Under the pieces are notes generated by a model. That model did not search any database, was not told the origin of the DNA, and saw nothing but the letters and a program-made list of their open reading frames with translations. From the NCBI RefSeq assembly GCF_000024365.1, contig NC_013235.1, forward strand, positions 4,960,001 to 5,024,000: 64,000 nucleotides of DNA. The letters are read 5' to 3'. This stretch comes from Nakamurella multipartita DSM 44233 (GTDB lineage Bacteria > Actinomycetota > Actinomycetes > Mycobacteriales > Nakamurellaceae). Both the position numbers and the translations under genes were made by a program. How positions within the stretch are numbered: the stretch's first letter is position 1; the number at the start of each line of letters is the position of its first letter. Below are positions 41,759 through 52,472 of this stretch, piece after piece.

Positions 41759-42028
41759 ATGGAATCAAGAGTCGCTGCTGACATCAGACAGTTCATCATC
41801 AGTACGTTCCTGTTTGGGGATGAAGCACGCATGCCGGCCGATACTGACTCTCTTCTGGAGACCGGTACTATCGATTCCACGGGAATTCTCGAATTGATCG
41901 AATTTCTCGAATCAGAATATCTGTTCAGTGTCGCCGACAGTGAGACTGTGCCGGAGAACCTCGGCAGCGTGGCCAACCTGGTCCGATACGTCGGAGAGAA
42001 GGCTGGTCAGGCCGCTGACGTCAGCTGA
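41759..42028 (+). CDS. Acyl carrier protein
   Basis: 89 aa, ATG 41759. It has the standard ACP form: helix I VAADIRQFIISTFLFG, loop, then TGTIDSTGILELIEFLESEY with Ser40 in the DS phosphopantetheine motif, and a final SVANLVRYVGEK helix. A holo-ACP synthase gene 3.4 kb downstream would load the arm. Together with the AMP ligase at 43022 it should carry an activated acyl group for transfer to the glycan or to another envelope acceptor. Unlike the ACP-like protein at 17947, the canonical serine is present. Confidence 0.88.
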   Translation: MESRVAADIRQFIISTFLFGDEARMPADTDSLLETGTIDSTGILELIEFLESEYLFSVADSETVPENLGSVANLVRYVGEKAGQAADVS

Positions 42029-42049
42029 CGCCGGCGATTCGACGACTGA

Positions 42050-42709
42050 TCATTCACCGGCGCCAGCGGAACCATTGTGAGGATCAAATGCCTCTATAAA
42101 GCGCTGGATATCATCCGACATCATGAGGTCTAGGGTGGCCGAGATTCGACCGATGGGCCAATTCCACCAGGAAATTCGCTGGAGCGCAGCAATCTGATCA
42201 GCAGGGAACCTGAATCCAGCCACCCGACTCGGGTTGCCCGCCACAATTCCATACGGTGGAATATCATGCCGCACCACACTGCCGGCGCCGATCACAGCTC
42301 CATCGCCAATTGTGACACCTGACAGGATAAGCGCTTCATTCCCGACCCATACATCGTTCCCAATCGTCACCGATCCGCGCGTCGCGGATGTCCGCGACGC
42401 GAGATTTCCCGAAGAGTCTTGGAACTCCGGATACGCGGGGAAGCGATACGTTGAAACAAAGTCCGTCCGGTGCTCGCCGCCTAGCAAAATATGTACGCCG
42501 TAAGCAAGCGAACAGAACTGACCAATTTGTAAGGTGGCACCCGGCGTCCTGTTCGATACCGTGAGGTGGCCCCAAGTATAGCGACCGATCTCGAACTGCT
42601 CGAGGTCCTTGCGCTGATCCAGTCGGGTGGCGGCCGGTAGAGCAGAAGCTGAACCACGCTGCAGTAGGCGTCGCGCCCGCGTGACCAAGGATGACGGAAT
42701 GCCGGTCAC
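42050..42709 (-). CDS. CatB-like hexapeptide-repeat O-acyltransferase
   Basis: 219 aa. A left-handed beta-helix is encoded by repeats such as LQIGQFCSLAYGVHILLG, VTIGNDVWVGNEALILSG and VTIGDGAVIGAGSVV, with the catalytic-type His in GGEHRTD and the family end DIPPYGIVAGNPSRV. These trimeric enzymes acetylate sugar hydroxyls or amines using acetyl-CoA. It faces the ACP gene convergently and lies within the acyl module, so it may O-acetylate the same polymer. The substrate is not determinable. Confidence 0.83.
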   Translation of the reverse strand: MTGIPSSLVTRARRLLQRGSASALPAATRLDQRKDLEQFEIGRYTWGHLTVSNRTPGATLQIGQFCSLAYGVHILLGGEHRTDFVSTYRFPAYPEFQDSSGNLASRTSATRGSVTIGNDVWVGNEALILSGVTIGDGAVIGAGSVVRHDIPPYGIVAGNPSRVAGFRFPADQIAALQRISWWNWPIGRISATLDLMMSDDIQRFIEAFDPHNGSAGAGE

Positions 42710-43021
42710 GCTGAATGCCGTCCCATACCGACGCGACCAAACTCTGGGCTCTCAGCAAACGCCGACCATGCCATCTACGTACCTTTCCGCAAGCTAGTTT
42801 CCCGGAGAGTCACTCGACCACTCCTTGTGAAGCACCTGACACTCACGGTGAGAACCTGGCGGCGCACGCCTCACCATTCGTCCGTTTCACCCCTATAGAG
42901 TATCCCCTCGTCACGATGATTGCCGACGATCGAAGAAGTCGGTATCCTGTGAGAGGGGTCACGAGCGTTGGCGTTCGCTATTGTCGCGCGTTGGCCGTTG
43001 AGGATCTTGGAGCGCATGTCG
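42710..43021. other. Divergent intergenic region
   Basis: Probably promoters for the acetyltransferase (-) and the ligase operon (+). GGAG at 43009-43012 is the likely ribosome-binding site of the ligase. Confidence 0.4.
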
Positions 43022-44575
43022 ATGATGAACACCGCAGAGTATCTGCTTTCGCGAGCTGATTCGAGCTCGATCGCCATAGTTGACGGTGAGTCGACATTCA
43101 CTTATGGACAGTTGCGCGCGACGGTTTCGCGATTGAGCGCCGACATTGCAGCTGTCGGCACCCGACCCGGAGAGCGCGTCGGGATCCTGGCCCGCAACTC
43201 GTTCTTCTGGGTTACGGCCTATCTCGCGACAATGTACTCCGGCCGAGTTGCCGTGCCCCTGCCGACCACCAATACGCCTGACCAGATGCGTCGTCACTCC
43301 GAGTTGGTCGATATTCAATCCTTCCTGGTTGATCGTCCTCAGATCCGACGATTCGCGACCGTGCTCGACCATAGCCCCACCATAGAGGATCCAGGTATCT
43401 ACGACGGCTCTGACAGCGACGAGTGGGCACCGGTTCCTGTCGAACCAGACTCGGATGCGGTATTCCAACTCACGTCAGGGACCACCGCAGCGCCCAAGGC
43501 CGTGCGGGTCACCCACGCCAACATCCAGGCGAATACCGCATCAATCATCGAGTATCTTCGACTCGATGCGGACGATCGCATGTTGGTCGTGTTGCCCTTC
43601 TCCTACTGCTTCGGAGCGTCGCTTCTCCACACCCACCTATGTGTGGGTGGCAGCGTAGCGCTGTGTCATAGCCTGACATTCCCGGAGACGGTGATCGACG
43701 CTATTGACACGCACGGGTGCACCGGATTTGCTGGAGTGCCCTCGACATACCAACTACTATTGCGCGCGAGCTCCCTTCGGCACCGTCGGCTACCTACCCT
43801 GCGCCACCTCCAGCAAGCCGGCGGAAAGCTACCACCGAATATCGTTGATGACCTCGTCAGAGCGCAACCGCATGCCCGCACGTTCGTTATGTATGGACAG
43901 ACGGAAGCGACTGCCCGACTCTCTTATCTCCCGCCTCAGGAGATCGAACGGCACCGCGGCTCGATCGGGAGGGGAATTGCCGGAGTCACCCTCCAGATAT
44001 TGGACAGCGACGACCACGAGGTCGCATTTGGCGAGGTGGGAGAACTCGTGGCGACCGGGCCAAGCATTACCAAAGGATACTGGAACGATCCGGTAGCAAC
44101 CGCAGAGAAGTATCGGGGCGGCGTTCTGCGCACAGGCGACCTCGCGACCGTCGATGAGGATGGGTTCATCTATATAGTCGACCGCCTTGGTGACTTCATC
44201 AAGTCATGGGGCTTCCGAGTATCGAGCCATGAGGTCGAAGATGCCGCCCTTCAAATCGCTGGTGTCTTTGCCGCGGCCGCTGTGGGAGTGCCTGATGAGG
44301 ACGCTGGCGAGGCGATCGCACTCTTTGTCGTCTGCGACTCGGAATCAGTCGCCGATGGTCAAATTCTAAGTGAGCTCAGAGGCCGACTGCCCAAGCACAT
44401 GGTACCGAGGTGGGTGCAGTCGCTGCCGGAGCTGCCACTAAATGCAAATGGAAAACCGATAAAAGCCGAACTTCGAGAGCTGTCGAGGTCCTTTCGGGAA
44501 CGGCCACCCGGGCCGCGCGAAACCGGACGCAGATCTGCCGCGTCATCAAATACCGCAGGGATGAGAGGTCGCTAG
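43022..44575 (+). CDS. AMP-forming acyl/amino-acid ligase (ANL superfamily)
   Basis: 517 aa from ATG 43022 (9 bp after GGAG; 43016 is also possible). The ANL core motifs are all present: FQLTSGTTAAPKAVRVTHAN (A3), YGQTEATARLSYLPP (A5), LRTGDLATVDEDGFIYIVDR (A7) and RLGDFIKSWGFRVSSHEVED (A8), with the catalytic Lys in PLNANGKPIKAEL (A10). It activates a carboxylate as adenylate and should load the ACP at 41759. The downstream start lies 2 bp after its stop, so SGNH and AcpS genes belong to the same operon. Substrate could be a short or branched acyl acid or an amino acid. Confidence 0.87.
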   Translation: MMNTAEYLLSRADSSSIAIVDGESTFTYGQLRATVSRLSADIAAVGTRPGERVGILARNSFFWVTAYLATMYSGRVAVPLPTTNTPDQMRRHSELVDIQSFLVDRPQIRRFATVLDHSPTIEDPGIYDGSDSDEWAPVPVEPDSDAVFQLTSGTTAAPKAVRVTHANIQANTASIIEYLRLDADDRMLVVLPFSYCFGASLLHTHLCVGGSVALCHSLTFPETVIDAIDTHGCTGFAGVPSTYQLLLRASSLRHRRLPTLRHLQQAGGKLPPNIVDDLVRAQPHARTFVMYGQTEATARLSYLPPQEIERHRGSIGRGIAGVTLQILDSDDHEVAFGEVGELVATGPSITKGYWNDPVATAEKYRGGVLRTGDLATVDEDGFIYIVDRLGDFIKSWGFRVSSHEVEDAALQIAGVFAAAAVGVPDEDAGEAIALFVVCDSESVADGQILSELRGRLPKHMVPRWVQSLPELPLNANGKPIKAELRELSRSFRERPPGPRETGRRSAASSNTAGMRGR

Positions 44576-44576
44576 C

Positions 44577-45440
44577 GTGACTAGACGGAGGAAACTTTGG
44601 CTGACCGCTGTTGCGGGGGTGGTCGCTATTGGCCTAGCCGGCGCATACCTTGTCCGGCCAGCGTCGTCGGTCGTACGCCAAGAGGCGTACCAGGTGCCGA
44701 CGGCAACTGGTAGCCAGCTCGAACGGGCGGCAAGCTTGAAGATTTTCTTCGCGCACCAGTCGGTCGGTAGAAATATGATTGAAGCGGTTCCCGCGGTCTA
44801 CGCCGCGGCCGGTATTCAACCCCCAGAAATTATCGCCTCTGACCAGGCTCAACTTGCAAGCTCCCATGGATATATTCAGCACGTCCTGGTCGGAAGGAAT
44901 GGTGATCCACTCGGTAAGATCAACGAATTCGACCGGCTTATTCGCTCGGGAATTGGGAGCCAGGTCGACGTTGCTGCTCTCAAGCTGTGCTATGTCGACT
45001 TCCGTAGCGGAGACGACACGGAGAGAGTATTCGAAGCCTACAGCAACACGTTAGCCGCCCTTCAGCGGGACTTTCCATCAGTTACGTTCCTGGCAATCAC
45101 TGTGCCGCTCACCACCGAACAGGGAATCCTCGGTCGGACAAAAGAGCGCCTCGGCTTGGGCGACCCCTACGGTCCTCAACACAACGTCACCCGCGAAACC
45201 TTCAACGCGAAGATCCGGGCTGAGTACGCGGATACCGGGCGGCTGTTCGATATCGCAGCCATGCAGTCGACGTCCTCAGACGGGATTCGTCTCGTTCGCA
45301 CCTTTGCAGGTGCTGAATATTTTTCAATGGAGGAGGCATCTGCGAAAGATCCAGGGCATCTGAACTCGACGGGCTCCGCGCTTGCTACGAGCGCCTTTCT
45401 CAGGACGATCGCCGGCGCCGCGGCGGCTAGCGCTCAGTGA
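44577..45440 (+). CDS. Membrane-anchored SGNH-like hydrolase/acyltransferase
   Basis: 287 aa from GTG 44577. One N-terminal membrane helix (LWLTAVAGVVAIGLAGAYLV) anchors an outside domain. LKIFFAHQSVGRNMIEAVP near residue 55 replaces the usual GDS block with an HQSVG variant; later blocks are VAALKLCYVDFRSGDD, VTFLAITVPLT and DPGHLNSTGSALATSAF with the terminal D-x-x-H-x-N. This is the SGNH/GDSL fold with altered nucleophile context. Located between the ligase and AcpS, it may transfer the ACP-carried group onto the glycan outside the membrane, or remove it. The stop overlaps the AcpS start by GTGA. Confidence 0.7.
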   Translation: MTRRRKLWLTAVAGVVAIGLAGAYLVRPASSVVRQEAYQVPTATGSQLERAASLKIFFAHQSVGRNMIEAVPAVYAAAGIQPPEIIASDQAQLASSHGYIQHVLVGRNGDPLGKINEFDRLIRSGIGSQVDVAALKLCYVDFRSGDDTERVFEAYSNTLAALQRDFPSVTFLAITVPLTTEQGILGRTKERLGLGDPYGPQHNVTRETFNAKIRAEYADTGRLFDIAAMQSTSSDGIRLVRTFAGAEYFSMEEASAKDPGHLNSTGSALATSAFLRTIAGAAAASAQ

Positions 45441-45841
45441 ACGTCGCCATCGGGACCGACATCGTCGAGGTTTCTCGAGTGGCACGACTGCTTGCTAGCG
45501 GCGAGCAGCGCTTCATGCGCCACTGGTTCACCGACGAGGAAATCACATATTGCACGTCAAAGGCATTCCCCGCCAGGCATCTGGCAGCACGGCTCGCAGT
45601 GAAGGAATCCATGCTCAAGGCGTTGCGGTGGCGGTGGGCCAGTGCAGCGCGGTGGCCGGAGATCAGCGTCATGCCAAGTCCTGACGGTGCGCCTCTCGTT
45701 GAGGTTGCCGGTTCAATCGCTGAAGTCGTCCGGGTGCGCGGATTGCGCTGGACGGTGTCAATGGCGCATGAACGGGAATGGGCAACGGCGACGGTCGTCA
45801 TGTGGAGCTCCAGCATTGGTGGGACGCCGATGGCGACCTAG
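45437..45841 (+). CDS. acpS: Holo-ACP synthase (4'-phosphopantetheinyl transferase)
   Basis: 134 aa from GTG 45437 inside the preceding stop (GTGA). AcpS signature residues: IGTDIVEVSRVARLLA (Asp for Mg), WFTDEEITYCTSKAFPARHL and ARLAVKESMLKAL (Glu). It moves the phosphopantetheine arm from CoA to the apo-ACP serine; the ACP at 41759 is the obvious substrate. A dedicated copy inside a decoration operon shows that this module is self-sufficient. Length and motifs are normal for AcpS; it may be additional to a housekeeping copy elsewhere. Confidence 0.88.
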   Translation: MNVAIGTDIVEVSRVARLLASGEQRFMRHWFTDEEITYCTSKAFPARHLAARLAVKESMLKALRWRWASAARWPEISVMPSPDGAPLVEVAGSIAEVVRVRGLRWTVSMAHEREWATATVVMWSSSIGGTPMAT

Positions 45842-46009: not shown

Positions 46010-46282
46010 ATGAGCATGACCGAGGAAACGATACGCATTCGACCAGACGATATTGTCTGGCAAGACCTCGACGGGGAATTGGTCATCCTGGACTTGAAGC
46101 GATCGGCCTACCTGGCCACAAATGCCACCGGCACCCTCCTGGCAAAGTATCTGACCGAACCTCGAACATTGGCCGAGCTGGCAGACCACTTGGTGGCCGA
46201 GTTCGGGATCGATCGGGAACTGGCGCTCGCCGACGCGCAGGCATTCGTCACGCAACTCCGAGAGAAGCATCTGCTTGCCTAG
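46010..46282 (+). CDS. Lasso-peptide B1: PqqD-like leader-binding protein (RRE)
   Basis: 90 aa from ATG 46010, preceded by an AAGAAGGGGG ribosome-binding stretch. The frame upstream to 45899 is not protein-like. The PqqD/RRE winged-helix core is visible as IVWQDLDGELVILDLKRSAY, LATNATGTLLAKYLT and LADHLVAEFGIDRELALAD. In lasso clusters this protein binds the precursor leader and presents it to the B2 protease. It starts a short + strand pair with the ABC transporter 36 bp downstream, and converges on the - strand A-C-B2-kinase operon. Confidence 0.88.
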   Translation: MSMTEETIRIRPDDIVWQDLDGELVILDLKRSAYLATNATGTLLAKYLTEPRTLAELADHLVAEFGIDRELALADAQAFVTQLREKHLLA

Positions 46283-46318: not shown

Positions 46319-48184
46319 ATGAGCAACGACGACGAACCAGCGCCACTCGACCCCATCGAACTACGTCTGCAAGCGAAAGCTGGTCGTCGCAGCGCTGGCC
46401 GCCTTGGGTCACTTGTCCACAAATCGACACGGCTAATGTGGCAGGCAGGCCCTCGCAAGTCAATCGTCCTTACCTGCATACAGGTCATCAACGCAGCGCT
46501 ACTTGCAGCCCAGGTCGTAGTCGTTGAGCGACTGGTTTCTGTGGTCATCGACCTGTCCTCCGGCGCAACCATGCGGGATCTGCTTCTGCCACTCGTGGCA
46601 TTTGCGGTGTTGACCGCGATCACCACCGTCATCGGCTCGGTCCAAACGCAGATAGGCCGATTGCTAGCAGAATCAGTGGCGCGTCTGATGTGGCGCTCGG
46701 TGTCCGGTGTGGCAGCAGCTGTGACGCTACGTCATTTCGAGGCTCCCGACTTCTACGACCTCTTGCAACGGGTGCAAAGCAATGCCACGCGCCCCTTCCA
46801 GGTGACTCAGGCCCTTTTGCGCATTCTTGGTGGCCTGACCGCGACCGTCGGTGTCGGTGCCGTACTTTTCGCGATCCATCCCATCCTCGTCCCGCTACTG
46901 GCGGTTGGGGGTCTGCCGCTGATCCTTACCAACCGTGCCGAGAGCAGGCTCGAGTTCAAATTCGCCGTCGACCAAACCACTAACCAACGCGAACGCGCTT
47001 ATCTCACTTTCTTACTGACTGGGAGAGTCGAAGCCAAGGAGATTCGCGCATTCGACTTGGGTGGACAATTCGCTGATAGACTGGACCGCCGACACGACGA
47101 GTACATCACGGCCATGCACGCGCATGTTCGTCATCGGCTGCGGCTCAATCTCGTCGGCAATCTGCTGAGCGCGATCCTCCTGAGCTGCACCATGATCATC
47201 GTTGCCTGGTTCATCGCAGATGGCCAAATCGACGTTAGTCAAGCCAGCGCCGCGATCGTGGCGATTCGCATGCTACAAGGCCAACTCCAGACGCTGCTCG
47301 GCGGAGTCCAAACCATCTTCGAGTCGGGCTTGTTCTTGGATGATGTCGAGTTGTTCCTTCGACTCGGCGCTGAGGCAGAGCGCGATGAGGACGGCGCACA
47401 ACCGCCGTCAGAATTCGAGACAATCACGGTCGATAATCTCGGATTCCGATACCCTGGAAGCACCCAGCACGCACTCCGCAATGTGAATATGCATATCCGG
47501 TCCGGATCACTTGTGGCTTTGGTCGGAGAGAATGGCTCGGGAAAGACGACATTGGCCAAAATCCTAGCTGGCCTCTACGACTGCGAGGAAGGGGCCGTGC
47601 GATGGGACGGTGTTGATACTCGCGAGTTCTCGAGAAAGGCTATCCGATCGCGGGTGGCGGTCATCTTTCAGGACTTCGCACGTTACGCATTTACGGCGAG
47701 AGAGAACATTGCTACCGGAGATGGTGCGCATCCCATCAATGATGATCGGGTGGTTGCGGCGGCGCGATCTGCCGGGGCCGACGGATTCCTGTCTCGCCTC
47801 CCGAAGCAATATCATACTATTCTTTCCAGACTGTTTCGTGGAGGACGGGACCTCTCCGGCGGACAATGGCAGCGTGTCGCTATCGCCCGAGCTTACTATC
47901 GAGACGCACCTCTGGTCATTCTCGACGAACCAACTGCATCGCTCGATGCTCGTGCTGAGCACGACCTCTTCGCGTCGTTGCGGGCAGTCCTGAAGGGCAG
48001 AACCGCCATATTTGTTTCCCACCGCTTTTCGACGGTCCGTACGGCAGATCTCATCGTTGTGCTGCACGCCGGGCAGATTGTTGAGTCCGGATCTCACGAC
48101 GAACTAATGGCACGGGGCGGCCGATATGCCGAGCTCTTCCGTCTTCAGGCTGCCGCTTACCTAGCAGATGTCGACGAGAATTAG
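46319..48184 (+). CDS. Lasso-peptide export ABC transporter (fused permease-ATPase)
   Basis: 621 aa, ATG 46319. Six hydrophobic segments in the first 320 residues (for example IVLTCIQVINAALLAAQVVV and LLSAILLSCTMIIVAWFIA) form the permease; the ATPase follows with Walker A LVGENGSGKTTLAK at about 400-413, signature LSGGQWQRVAIARA at about 512 and Walker B LVILDEPTASLD at about 533. This is the D component typical of lasso operons, exporting and often giving self-immunity to the peptide. Its stop lies 50 bp from the convergent kinase gene. Confidence 0.9.
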   Translation: MSNDDEPAPLDPIELRLQAKAGRRSAGRLGSLVHKSTRLMWQAGPRKSIVLTCIQVINAALLAAQVVVVERLVSVVIDLSSGATMRDLLLPLVAFAVLTAITTVIGSVQTQIGRLLAESVARLMWRSVSGVAAAVTLRHFEAPDFYDLLQRVQSNATRPFQVTQALLRILGGLTATVGVGAVLFAIHPILVPLLAVGGLPLILTNRAESRLEFKFAVDQTTNQRERAYLTFLLTGRVEAKEIRAFDLGGQFADRLDRRHDEYITAMHAHVRHRLRLNLVGNLLSAILLSCTMIIVAWFIADGQIDVSQASAAIVAIRMLQGQLQTLLGGVQTIFESGLFLDDVELFLRLGAEAERDEDGAQPPSEFETITVDNLGFRYPGSTQHALRNVNMHIRSGSLVALVGENGSGKTTLAKILAGLYDCEEGAVRWDGVDTREFSRKAIRSRVAVIFQDFARYAFTARENIATGDGAHPINDDRVVAAARSAGADGFLSRLPKQYHTILSRLFRGGRDLSGGQWQRVAIARAYYRDAPLVILDEPTASLDARAEHDLFASLRAVLKGRTAIFVSHRFSTVRTADLIVVLHAGQIVESGSHDELMARGGRYAELFRLQAAAYLADVDEN

Positions 48185-48234: not shown

Positions 48235-49176
48235 TTACGAGCCGAATATCCGGACCTCGTCCGGCCTAGCGGCCGCGTCGGCGATAGTGCTGGCGATATC
48301 GTTGCGAAAGGGCGGTCCCCAGGGAACCTTGGCGCCAAAAACCGGAATCGTGTCAGCCACCGCGCTTGCTAGTCCGAACATCGTGCGAATGACTTTTGGA
48401 TCCTGCCAGCCCAAGAGTCGCGGATACCGCATCAAGGAGACATGTGCCTCCGGCTTGCTTAGGCGGAACACCTCCAGCACGCTTTCCCGGTTGGGAAGTG
48501 GAATGAAGATGGCGTCCAGGCGGCGCTCGGACATCGTGACGTGCTCGGAACGCAAGGGAACCACTAGTCGTGCGTCCGCGCTCGTCCGGAATGATCCAAC
48601 CGCCAAGGCTCGCGCCGCCTCGCGTAGTCTCACTTCGGGAGACCCGACCGCGACAGTTACCGGACGCTGACAAACGACCGGTAGCACGTCGTCGGTCAAG
48701 AGTTCGGCGCCCTGTTGGCACATCAGCGCCGCCAGTGTCGACTTTCCCTGACCCGACCGACCCAGGAATGCGATGGTTCGACCGTCCGCGCACGTGACAG
48801 CGCTCGAGTGCATCACGGGAATATCATCGAGATAGAGGAGGAGAGCTGGGATGGTCCCGGTGGCCATCACCTGCGCCATACCTAGGTCAGCATCGGGCAG
48901 CAGCGCAATCCTAATACTGTTTCTCTCAGCGTTGACGAAGATGTCGCACAGGCCATAGACCCTCATGGTCAATTCACCATCGGGCAAGCGTCCAACCGAG
49001 TACCAGCGGCGACCACGCGCTTGGTAATCGAGCAGTATCTTTCCCGGCGGCAGTTCAGCTGACTGGGAGGCCAGCTCCTCCAGTCGCAACCGGAGGTTGG
49101 GCTTGTCGGAATCAGTTGGCAGATGCAGTGGAAAGTCGGCATCTACGGCCCAGCCGTACATTCGGTAGGTGGTCAT
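48235..49176 (-). CDS. HPr-kinase-like lasso-peptide tail kinase
   Basis: 313 aa from ATG 49176, overlapping the B2 stop as ATGA; the longer frame to 49206 overlaps B2 needlessly. Walker A GRSGQGKST at residues about 139-147, the HPrK capture histidine region VMHSSAV at about 122-128, and LLTDD at about 159-163 match the C-terminal kinase core of HprK. In paeninodin- and pseudomycoidin-type clusters such kinases phosphorylate the C-terminal Ser of the lasso precursor. The precursor here ends in Ser, which agrees. Last gene of the precursor operon. Confidence 0.85.
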   Translation of the reverse strand: MTTYRMYGWAVDADFPLHLPTDSDKPNLRLRLEELASQSAELPPGKILLDYQARGRRWYSVGRLPDGELTMRVYGLCDIFVNAERNSIRIALLPDADLGMAQVMATGTIPALLLYLDDIPVMHSSAVTCADGRTIAFLGRSGQGKSTLAALMCQQGAELLTDDVLPVVCQRPVTVAVGSPEVRLREAARALAVGSFRTSADARLVVPLRSEHVTMSERRLDAIFIPLPNRESVLEVFRLSKPEAHVSLMRYPRLLGWQDPKVIRTMFGLASAVADTIPVFGAKVPWGPPFRNDIASTIADAAARPDEVRIFGS

Positions 49177-49664
49177 GAGACGGTCGCTGACTTTGCGGAC
49201 ACCCATTGCGCGTTGAAGTCTAGAGACGCATCTGGATCCAGGCTGACCCCGTCGATCTCCAGCCAGGCATGCGCCTTGAATCCGTCAGCGGTGCGCAGAA
49301 CTCCAATCCGCACGGCGTGATCTCTGCGGCGCATCAGGCATGCGCCGATAATTGAGCGCCGCAGGCATGTCGAATTAAAGGGACCGATATCTAGGACCCG
49401 CCAGGCGATCGCTAGAGCACGGCGCTCCCGGTCAGTTAGGCGAAGTTCGGCATGCGAACTATCTGGCACGCCCGGCCCGCCTTCGAGCCGTACCCGAATC
49501 CTCAATAGATTCGCCGTCCGCTGAATGGCGATCGTTCGGAGAAGGAGTTCAACCATCGGCGCCAATACTGCAGCGCGCATGGCGACCATAATATCTGAAG
49601 CTGTTAGTCTGCGCAGCCGCGAAAGGACACGGCGGAACGAGAGTACTCGAGTCACGGCGAACAT
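49173..49664 (-). CDS. Lasso-peptide B2 leader protease (transglutaminase-like)
   Basis: 163 aa, starting 13 bp inside the end of the cyclase gene. The B2 fold is marked by an N-terminal hydrophobic/basic region and the catalytic triad Cys100 (FNSTCLRRSIIGACLMRRR), His132 (KAHAWLEIDG) and Asp143 (VSLDPDAS). The segment RVLDIGPFNSTCLRRS is typical. With B1 it removes the leader before cyclisation. Length is normal and no lesion is visible. Confidence 0.9.
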   Translation of the reverse strand: MFAVTRVLSFRRVLSRLRRLTASDIMVAMRAAVLAPMVELLLRTIAIQRTANLLRIRVRLEGGPGVPDSSHAELRLTDRERRALAIAWRVLDIGPFNSTCLRRSIIGACLMRRRDHAVRIGVLRTADGFKAHAWLEIDGVSLDPDASLDFNAQWVSAKSATVS

Positions 49665-50890
49665 CTCAGAGAGTCTATTTCACTGGCGTGCTCGGCGGTC
49701 CAGGCGACATGAAGAAGGAAATCAGCCTGTGGGGCGGGAGATTCGCTGAGCCACTCCGCACGTAGCTTGTCGGCGTGAATTCGAGTCGTATCGATGCCTG
49801 ATCCAGTCCAGGACTTCGCAAATTCGCGCTCCCCCGGACCCCATCGCGTTTCATTGAAGGATGCCTTCGTCGTGCGGGAAATGACCTGTCGAGGTAGGAG
49901 ATCACCCACGAGATAGTCAAAGGTGAGGCTTCGACTGCCAAAACCAAACGGACCGCCCTCTCGAGCCAGCGCCGCGAGGAACGCCGGCTCAACAAACGGT
50001 GTGATCGGGCGGAGATCTAGCTCAGCAATCGTGGATTTGACATTTGTAAACAGCACTTGGGCGCCAGGCGACTGCAGTACCGTCCGCGTTCGGATATCCC
50101 ATCGCAAAGGATCCTTCTGGTGCAATGCGGAGCGCAATTCTTCGGCTCCAGCGTCGGTATACCAGGATGGTACTTCGATCGACCACCGTCGCCGAAGCAC
50201 AGCGCGTCTGCTTGCTCGAAGTACACTCCGGCGCGGTGGCCAGTTATGGGTCAGCTTCCTGAGCGGCGCTGCACGCCCTCCGGCGACGACGTTATCGCCA
50301 CCCTCCCCGCTGACGAACGACGAACCTGACTCCAATCCGGCTAGCAGCGCTCCCTGCAATTGGGCGGCTTCCGGCCAAACGAGCCCATGTCGCCGCATGG
50401 CAGTCGTGGCTGTCTCTCCAAGCAACCGCTGTTCGTGGTGGATTCGGACGACAATCCGCTCGGTCATCCCGAGATAATTCAGCACGAGCTCCTGCCATTG
50501 GGCCTCGTCAGAACGCGGTGCATGGGGGTATACCGCAGTCACTGGAATCGGGGGCGGCAGTCCATCCCGACGGGCGACATGAGCCGCGACTGCGAGCAGG
50601 GCCGATGAATCGCGTCCACCCGAAAATGCCACATAGCATGGGCTCGCCACGAGCGCACCTCGAAGCGCATCCTCCATGACTTGCCTGGCGGTCCTGGAGT
50701 CGGTGGGTCGGCTGACCACAGGCGGTCGCCCTCGGTCCTCGAACGGAAACGCGAACTGTTCCTCGACCGAGGACAGCCTGGCAAATGTGACCGCGTCCGG
50801 CGCTGTCAAGGATCTCCCCCAATCGACACTGATGGTGGTGGCGGACGTTCGTCTGCCACCACCATCAGCTTCGGTCGACATGCCAGTCAT
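49652..50890 (-). CDS. Lasso-peptide cyclase (asparagine-synthetase-like, short form)
   Basis: 412 aa, ATG 50890, 7 bp after the precursor stop (an ATG at 50881 is also possible). The PP-loop VAFSGGRDSSALLAVAAHVA is at about 87-106, and FVSGEGGDNVVAGGRAAPLR, LTFDYLVGDLLPRQVISRTT and FNETRWGPGEREF follow as in lasso C proteins. It should adenylate the ring acid side chain and join it to the Gly1 amine. The usual N-terminal glutaminase-like domain of about 200 residues is nearly absent, so this is a short-form cyclase; the first 60 residues are a variable stub. Confidence 0.88.
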   Translation of the reverse strand: MTGMSTEADGGGRRTSATTISVDWGRSLTAPDAVTFARLSSVEEQFAFPFEDRGRPPVVSRPTDSRTARQVMEDALRGALVASPCYVAFSGGRDSSALLAVAAHVARRDGLPPPIPVTAVYPHAPRSDEAQWQELVLNYLGMTERIVVRIHHEQRLLGETATTAMRRHGLVWPEAAQLQGALLAGLESGSSFVSGEGGDNVVAGGRAAPLRKLTHNWPPRRSVLRASRRAVLRRRWSIEVPSWYTDAGAEELRSALHQKDPLRWDIRTRTVLQSPGAQVLFTNVKSTIAELDLRPITPFVEPAFLAALAREGGPFGFGSRSLTFDYLVGDLLPRQVISRTTKASFNETRWGPGEREFAKSWTGSGIDTTRIHADKLRAEWLSESPAPQADFLLHVAWTAEHASEIDSLRCSP

Positions 50891-50897
50891 GCTGGCG

Positions 50898-51047
50898 TCA
50901 CGAGCCTACCGAAGGATCACCCCACGGATCGGGGATCGAGTGTCCCCAGAACTGGAAGGTGTCGCGTTCCGGACCCCACTGGATCTGACCCAGAGTGAGG
51001 TTCTCGACCGATCCCAGCTCGGTGATGACGGGCGAGACGTATGCCAT
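50898..51047 (-). CDS. Lasso-peptide precursor, 49 aa
   Basis: ATG 51047 with a very strong ribosome-binding site (GGGGGGAGGTG at 51052-51062), stop at 50898. The leader, residues 1-19, contains Y3-x-x-P6-x-I8-x3-G12-x5-T18-x, which is the conserved RRE-recognition pattern of actinobacterial lasso leaders, with Thr at -2. The core, residues 20-49, starts GQIQWGPERD: Gly20 is core position 1 and Glu27 is position 8, allowing an 8-residue macrolactam ring. The 22-residue tail is rich in aromatic residues and Pro (FQFWGHSIPDPWGD) and ends ...SVGS, with a C-terminal Ser as target for the kinase. First gene of the A-C-B2-K operon. It is too short for usual ORF cutoffs. Confidence 0.85.
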   Translation of the reverse strand: MAYVSPVITELGSVENLTLGQIQWGPERDTFQFWGHSIPDPWGDPSVGS

Positions 51048-51338
51048 GATTCACCTCCCCCCAGATCACGAACGGACTCACGCGAACCGGATCAAAGGGT
51101 CAGTCCGGCGGCGCAATGCAAAGGGTAGCGGCTGGGTGGCCAACCTACGCGCCGGATCACCCGATGTCACCAGCACATCACCCATTCGGTGACGCAACGT
51201 GGCCAGACCCGCGTCAAAGTCGTCGTTATGGTTGGCAACTGCTCACGTCTGATCACGATCATCGGGCGGTCGAGCCTTTCGGCCGCACGGCGCACAAGGA
51301 CAGCACGCTGGTGGACGGAGTGGGGTGCCACATGTCCG
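51048..51338 (-). promoter_or_regulatory. Leader region upstream of the lasso precursor
   Basis: 291 bp between the nucleotidyltransferase stop and the precursor start, with no frame of its own. It is expected to hold the precursor promoter; only the ribosome-binding site GGGGGGAGGTG (51052-51062) is clear. Confidence 0.5.
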
Positions 51339-52472
51339 CTACCTCTGACTCGAAGCCTCGACCGTGCGCAGAAAGCGGTCATAGGTCGCTGCGGAGGCGG
51401 GGACTCGGCCATGGTCGACTTGCGCATCACGCCGAACCCGGTCGGCGACGCCGAGAGCGGCATGCTGAACGGCGACGGAGAGCGTTGCCCGGAATGAAGC
51501 CCGCACGGCCCGGGCACCAAAGCGACTGAGGTCGTGGACGTGGCGCACCTGCGCAACCGGGGCGACCCGGTCGACAGCTGAGAACATCCCCCGCAGAGGG
51601 GCACTAATCCCAAGGGAATCGCTCAGGCCTTCGGGCAGTGGCGTTCCTAGATTCGCTTGAGCGCGATGTAGAACGAGCCAGACCTGAGCCTGGGCTCGCC
51701 ATTGATGAGCCCGTTCGATCACCGTCTCCCAGTTGGTGACACTTCTCGCCACTGAATCCGTATCAACCAGTTGCAGCAGGCGAGCGGAGCCATCAAGCGC
51801 CGCATGGAGACATGTGTGGACGACCGTGTCCTCAGGGTTCAGCGTTGGAACGCTGGTGAGACCCACCGTCGCGGTCACGCGGCGTGAGAGGAGTCCGTCA
51901 GTCTGGATATCGAAGAGATCACGCCGGACGGCGCTATTGATCATCGACCAATGCAGGTCGAGCTGCAGTCCATGAGGACTAAGCCAATGCATTTCACCCG
52001 GCGGCCGGTCACGGGACAACATGTCGTCATAGTCCAAGAGCCGCCAGCCAGCCGCGCGCAGTCGCTCGCACGCGTCACGGAGCGCGCGCGGGTGTATCAA
52101 CACATCGATGTCTGTGAAAGTTCGGAGTCCTGGCACAGGGTGGTGGTTCATGGAGAGGACCAGGCCCTTGAACGTCAGCCATGGCAATCCATCCAAGGCT
52201 TGCCTGATCGAACCCAATGTCAGCGTGGCCTTGAAAGTGGTCGCCAGCGCGCGATCACGATCCTCTCGGACCCGCCCCGCGACGACGTCATCGAGGCCGC
52301 GAGTCGCTACATATGCCAGGGGCGCGATCCGGTGCAGCCGCGCAGCGTCCACGAACTCGTCAATCTCCGTGGCGGACAGACCACTAGGTGGCCATGTCGC
52401 ACGACACGCGGACAGCAGCGCGCGGGTGACTGACGGGTTCCGGGATGAAGCTCGACGGCGCCGAACGGCCAT
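51339..52472 (-). CDS. Nucleotidyltransferase-family protein of the lasso cluster
   Basis: 377 aa, start at 52472. It matches the NTP_transf_5 type: LPWLTFKGLVLSMNHHPVPG, then LRTFTDIDVLIHPRALRDAC with the DxD metal pair, AAGWRLLDYDDMLSRDR, GLQLDLHWSMINSAVRRDLF and EDTVVHTCLHAALDGSARLL. This family is often found beside lasso kinases; in the pseudomycoidin cluster the homologue PsmN glycosylates the phosphorylated tail. A similar tail modification is inferred here. It is transcribed in the same direction as the precursor, 291 bp upstream, so it may have its own promoter. Confidence 0.82.
   Translation of the reverse strand: MAVRRRRASSRNPSVTRALLSACRATWPPSGLSATEIDEFVDAARLHRIAPLAYVATRGLDDVVAGRVREDRDRALATTFKATLTLGSIRQALDGLPWLTFKGLVLSMNHHPVPGLRTFTDIDVLIHPRALRDACERLRAAGWRLLDYDDMLSRDRPPGEMHWLSPHGLQLDLHWSMINSAVRRDLFDIQTDGLLSRRVTATVGLTSVPTLNPEDTVVHTCLHAALDGSARLLQLVDTDSVARSVTNWETVIERAHQWRAQAQVWLVLHRAQANLGTPLPEGLSDSLGISAPLRGMFSAVDRVAPVAQVRHVHDLSRFGARAVRASFRATLSVAVQHAALGVADRVRRDAQVDHGRVPASAATYDRFLRTVEASSQR

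Follow-up and report, generated by a model that had tools for sequence, protein, structure and literature searches.

A kinase-linked lasso peptide precursor of Nakamurella multipartita whose ring acid is most likely Asp10

The stretch analysed here, hereafter the window, comprises 64,000 nucleotides (positions 4960001-5024000 of contig NC_013235.1) of the single-contig genome of Nakamurella multipartita DSM 44233 (6,060,298 bp). It holds a complete lasso peptide gene set, in which the genes for the precursor (A), the cyclase (C), the leader peptidase (B2) and a kinase (K) follow one another on one strand, those for the leader-binding protein (B1) and an ABC exporter (D) lie on the other, and a nucleotidyltransferase gene (N) is found upstream. 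The features, in window coordinates, are as follows:

46013..46282, plus strand: B1 leader-binding protein, PqqD family (PF05402), by family match
46319..48184, plus strand: ABC exporter D, by family match; conserved among relatives
48235..49206, minus strand: HPr-kinase-like tailoring kinase K, by family match and conserved motif
49173..49664, minus strand: leader peptidase B2, Transglut_core3 (PF13471); NF033537 at 52.8 bits, cut-off 33
49652..50890, minus strand: lasso cyclase C, Asn_synthase fold (PF00733), by family match
50829..50869, minus strand: strong RNA hairpin right behind the stop codon of A, by folding energy
50898..51047, minus strand: lasso precursor A, 49 aa; leader, residues 1-19, MAYVSPVITELGSVENLTL; core, residues 20-49, GQIQWGPERDTFQFWGHSIPDPWGDPSVGS
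50901..50903, minus strand: codon of the C-terminal Ser (core Ser30), predicted phosphorylation site
50961..50990, minus strand: codons of core residues 1-10 (GQIQWGPERD), predicted ring from Gly1 to Asp10
50961-50963 and 50967-50969, minus strand: codons of Asp10 and Glu8, respectively
51051..51062, minus strand: strong Shine-Dalgarno sequence of the A gene, GGGGGGAGGTGA, followed by ATC and the ATG start
51339..52472, minus strand: nucleotidyltransferase N, PF14907 (NTP_transf_5), E 9.4e-45

By the features of its sequence, the 49-residue frame is a genuine lasso peptide precursor. Its leader fits the motif YxxPx(L/I)x3Gx5Tx exactly, as the original prediction had stated, and residues 3-21 also match the NCBIfam model NF033521 (lasso_leader_L3) with 22.9 bits, above the cut-off of 19. 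It is the sole small ORF with the strict motif in the 64-kb window; in 100 first-order Markov simulations, which covered this window, the number of such ORFs expected by chance had a mean of 0.03 and a maximum of 1. The original prediction had also called a lasso precursor with a core starting at Gly1, and both points are supported; moreover, close relatives place their precursor just upstream of C, so that a precursor located elsewhere in homologous clusters, which would have spoken against the call, was not what we found. The call of the precursor thus stands; the Gly1-Glu8 ring proposed with it most likely does not (see below).

The ribosome-binding site of the A gene had been described as exceptionally strong, which agrees with the order GGGGGGAGGTGA-ATC-ATG, and the precursor genes of relatives have Shine-Dalgarno sequences of comparable strength. 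The hairpin behind A folds with an energy of -48.7 kcal/mol over 91 nt (z -4.75), and hairpins of like strength, differing in sequence, stand behind every precursor of the clade with Asp10 (see below), with a median of -37.5 kcal/mol versus -24.2 kcal/mol for stretches taken at random from the same loci. It probably sets the ratio of A to C expression or shields the A message. Given this strong structure behind the stop of A, the true start of C is probably the TTG at 50809, beyond the hairpin and preceded by GGGGGAG, rather than the ATG at 50890.

The predicted model of the cyclase has a pLDDT of 90.5 and its nearest solved folds are of the asparagine synthetase/beta-lactam synthetase type; among the sequences of the PDB, the cyclase profile had no match. 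For the kinase, encoded by the third gene downstream of A (C and B2 lie between), a profile search reaches HPr kinase structures. Its conserved residues are H133, G149, G154-K155-S156 and D172-D173; among these, H133, K155 and D172-D173 are invariant across the 12 kinases compared, and the motif is the same as in characterised lasso kinases. The nucleotidyltransferase is retained in most related clusters.

Related clusters, roughly 100, were gathered through cyclase and kinase searches from Cellulosimicrobium, Georgenia, Luteimicrobium, Micropruina, Microbacterium, Occultella, Jiangella, Nocardioides, Isoptericola, Amycolatopsis and other genera, and their precursors were read beside the respective cyclases (loci are denoted here by L numbers). 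Genome contigs screened by the window cyclase on its own gave no match; with the kinase alignment, 78 loci were obtained.

The original prediction had named Glu8 as the ring acid and had proposed looking for conserved core positions in homologous clusters. Gly1 and Asp10 turned out to be fixed, being invariant in all 17 distinct cores of the window's cyclase clade, and position 8 to be free, occupied among homologous clusters by E, D, Q, K, Y, W, N, F or L. Furthermore, six of the 17 cores (L076, L077, L154, L174, L175 and L191) have no acid at positions 7-9, the range in which the window core has its Glu8. These observations do not support the assignment of Glu8 and together indicate that the ring acid is most likely Asp10, the conserved acid of the clade. 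A MAFFT alignment has zero gaps from the leader Thr to Asp10. The commonest precursors carry the acid at position 9 of the core (76 cores, in 75 of which it is Asp), and the neighbouring cyclase groups combine Asp9 with the same downstream aromatics; Asp10 is the counterpart of Asp9, because both stand 4-5 residues before the same aromatic positions. We therefore regard the window gene as, very probably, a lasso precursor with Asp10 as its ring acid. The likely product would be a lasso closed from Gly1 to Asp10 (ring of 10 residues, tail of 20), phosphorylated and perhaps glycosylated at its terminal Ser.

In a tree of 78 cyclases, the 13 enzymes of the Asp10 type form exactly one clade (support 99/96), and the trait requires a single change on the tree versus 12.3 in shuffles. 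Loci fetched later agree, in that Asp10 is present in L191 and L193, which fall inside the clade, and Asp9 in L192, which falls outside it; as L193 and L100 have identical cyclases, the new cases are L191 and L192 only. The most economical reading of these sequences is that one cyclase lineage lengthened the ring by one residue. Among the positions listed as separating Asp10 from Asp9 cyclases is Trp350, shortly after the conserved Lys342, which is present in 13/13 Asp10 cyclases and also in L099, their sister. Locus L029, whose core has both E8 and D10, was removed from the Asp10 group, given its distant cyclase and a first acid at ring distance that stands at position 8. In Georgenia (L173, L175), one locus has an Asp10 and an Asp9 cluster within ~12 kb, and another has two differing Asp10 precursors.

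What counts against Asp10 is that Glu8 in the window, as well as Asp8 in its sister and nearest relative L074, occupy a normal ring position, and these two could therefore have switched. A Gly1-Glu8 lasso with an 8-residue ring, which would leave Asp10 in the loop, would also fall within the 7-9 residues of the natural rings known so far. Nevertheless, we consider this reading unlikely: position 8 is not conserved within the clade (it is Q in L076 and L191, K in L154 and L174, and Y in L077), the invariance of Asp10 would be left without a reason, and the conserved acid across the family is Asp, not Glu (75/76 cores of the D9 type, 17/17 of the Asp10 type). The L191 core in particular (GKLAWGPQKD), a close match to GQIQWGPERD, could not use position 8 at all.

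A normal nine-residue ring closed by the same Asp would result if the leader were cut one residue later, so that the core began at Gln2, in agreement with the usual ring size and with the Asp9 relatives. However, neither the leader spacing nor the Thr at -2 differs from that of the Asp9 relatives, and position +1 holds Gly in 17/17 cores, whereas position +2 is occupied by K, G, R, S, Q, W, L or D; an invariant Gly would be unexpected as the last residue of a leader, and a later cut appears very improbable. That the locus yields a branched or unthreaded cyclic peptide, or is silent or decayed, and does not give a working lasso, is hardly to be believed, as all the genes are intact, their motifs are kept, and so are the ribosome-binding site and the hairpin behind A.

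The core of A has 30 residues and ends in Ser. Its length had been described as long for a lasso peptide, which is true in general, but is ordinary in the kinase-linked family, where cores have 18-40 aa (22-35 aa in the Asp10 clade and 18-40 aa in the D9 type); we thus rejected the idea that a 30-residue core is unusual in this family. The match between the C-terminal Ser and the kinase of the cluster, also part of the original prediction, is supported by the kinase gene and by the terminal Ser of relatives, 102/109 of the related precursors terminating in Ser or Ser-Arg. By analogy with paeninodin and pseudomycoidin, Ser30 is probably phosphorylated and perhaps glycosylated. The window gene ends Gly-Ser-stop (50890-50905), no Arg codon intervening; in most members of its subclade (L074, L076, L077, L154 and L174) the end is Gly-Ser-Arg-stop, with an Arg after the kinase Ser.

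At 41759-45841, leading into B1 and D, the window encodes an ACP-like protein (DST motif; no Pfam match), a hexapeptide transferase, an acyl-AMP ligase, an SGNH-like protein and AcpS. In Pseudactinotalea (L097/L180) and Nocardioides (L109, L123), the same acyl-carrier set adjoins lasso clusters of the kinase type, and the ligase is present in L133. The SGNH-like protein was found in 5/394 genomes of the class; among the other four, L189 has lasso-like genes nearby and three do not. A lipidated phospho-glyco-lasso, in which the 10-residue ring of a shifted cyclase lineage would be combined, in this genome, with a tail that is phosphoglycosylated and also acylated by this module, is conceivable but improbable.

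Among the other loci, the precursors of L082:12336- and L129:15241- have two Cys (GYPQNCKYGHGADN... and LPIQACKYGYGADN...), with the first possible ring acid 13 residues past the usual cleavage point; if cut before Cys6, they would yield a Cys1-Asp8 ring. In the nucleotidyltransferase-linked L013, L016, L017, L167, L170 and L171, the cores start with Q, D, R, L or S and have their first acid at 10 or 11; these are possibly a second large-ring group, or reflect another cleavage site. Cores with Glu, an uncommon first residue, and Asp9 occur in L079, L092, L081, L113 and L139 (EGQLALNYD..., EQQFAFDYD...). Finally, in L034-L037, L094 and L106 (Pseudonocardiaceae-like, several from Amycolatopsis), a single kinase and a single exporter are surrounded by two cyclases and two precursors (GQSSGSRLDADF... 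and ANLFGSSPDNLTW...).

From the observed cluster and leader, the conservation of the kinase motif and the finding that Gly1 and Asp10 do not vary within one cyclase clade, we infer a pathway of phosphorylation, ring closure at Asp10, threading, glycosylation and export. B1 would bind the leader via Tyr-17, Pro-14 and Ile-12, and K would phosphorylate the C-terminal Ser30 of the core. B2 is predicted to cut after Leu19, one residue past the conserved Thr, a position suggested by the conservation of this Thr at -2. C would then adenylate the side chain of Asp10 and couple it to the amino group of Gly1, the 10-residue ring closing around the tail; the phosphate may receive one or two sugars from N, and D presumably exports the product.

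If true, a natural 10-residue ring would be of a size absent among structurally characterised natural lasso peptides, whose rings have 7, 8 or 9 residues (2026 review, PMC13352647), and it would characterise a whole clade with its own cyclases beside sister cyclases for nine-residue rings. With such sister groups, the way in which a cyclase measures ring size becomes directly testable, by enzyme swap or by insertion or deletion of one residue. Precursor finders limited to acids at positions 7-9 would misplace the ring, at Glu8 in the present case, or miss the acid, as in 6/17 cores.

A natural ring of ten residues did not turn up in the open-access literature, a search in which most subscription papers are missing; the single example found is an analogue of fusilassin made in vitro (2021 review, PMC8498205), which shares the ten-residue macrolactam ring and is a variant rather than a natural sequence family. 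Among clusters with a kinase, that of bsf from Bradymonas sediminis has A, B1, B2, C, D, a kinase and a nucleotidyltransferase, but differs in the Ile at -2 of its leader and in its C-terminal Asp; BsfK phosphorylates Ser3 and not the C-terminus, which calls for caution regarding Ser30 (PMC10368454). Paeninodin, a phosphorylated class II lasso peptide (kinases PadeK/ThcoK), resembles the present system in the split B1/B2, in C, D and the HPr-like kinase, in the His-Lys-Asp-Asp motif of the kinase and in the C-terminal Ser as the kinase site (PMC9266682); it differs in coming from a Firmicute, in a core unrelated to that of the window and in the 10-residue ring predicted here. The phosphoglycosylated pseudomycoidin, in which the terminal Ser is phosphorylated and one or two hexoses are then added to the phosphate, likewise has a kinase and a nucleotidyltransferase gene (PMC8498205); it is also from a Firmicute, its ring size differs by prediction, and sugar transfer by the window's enzyme is putative. 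The kinase-type Asp9 clusters of Occultella, Jiangella, Pengzhenrongella and Nocardioides share with the window the gene set, the leader, the terminal Ser and the DxxxWF after the ring acid, but have that acid at position 9 and cyclases outside the Asp10 clade.
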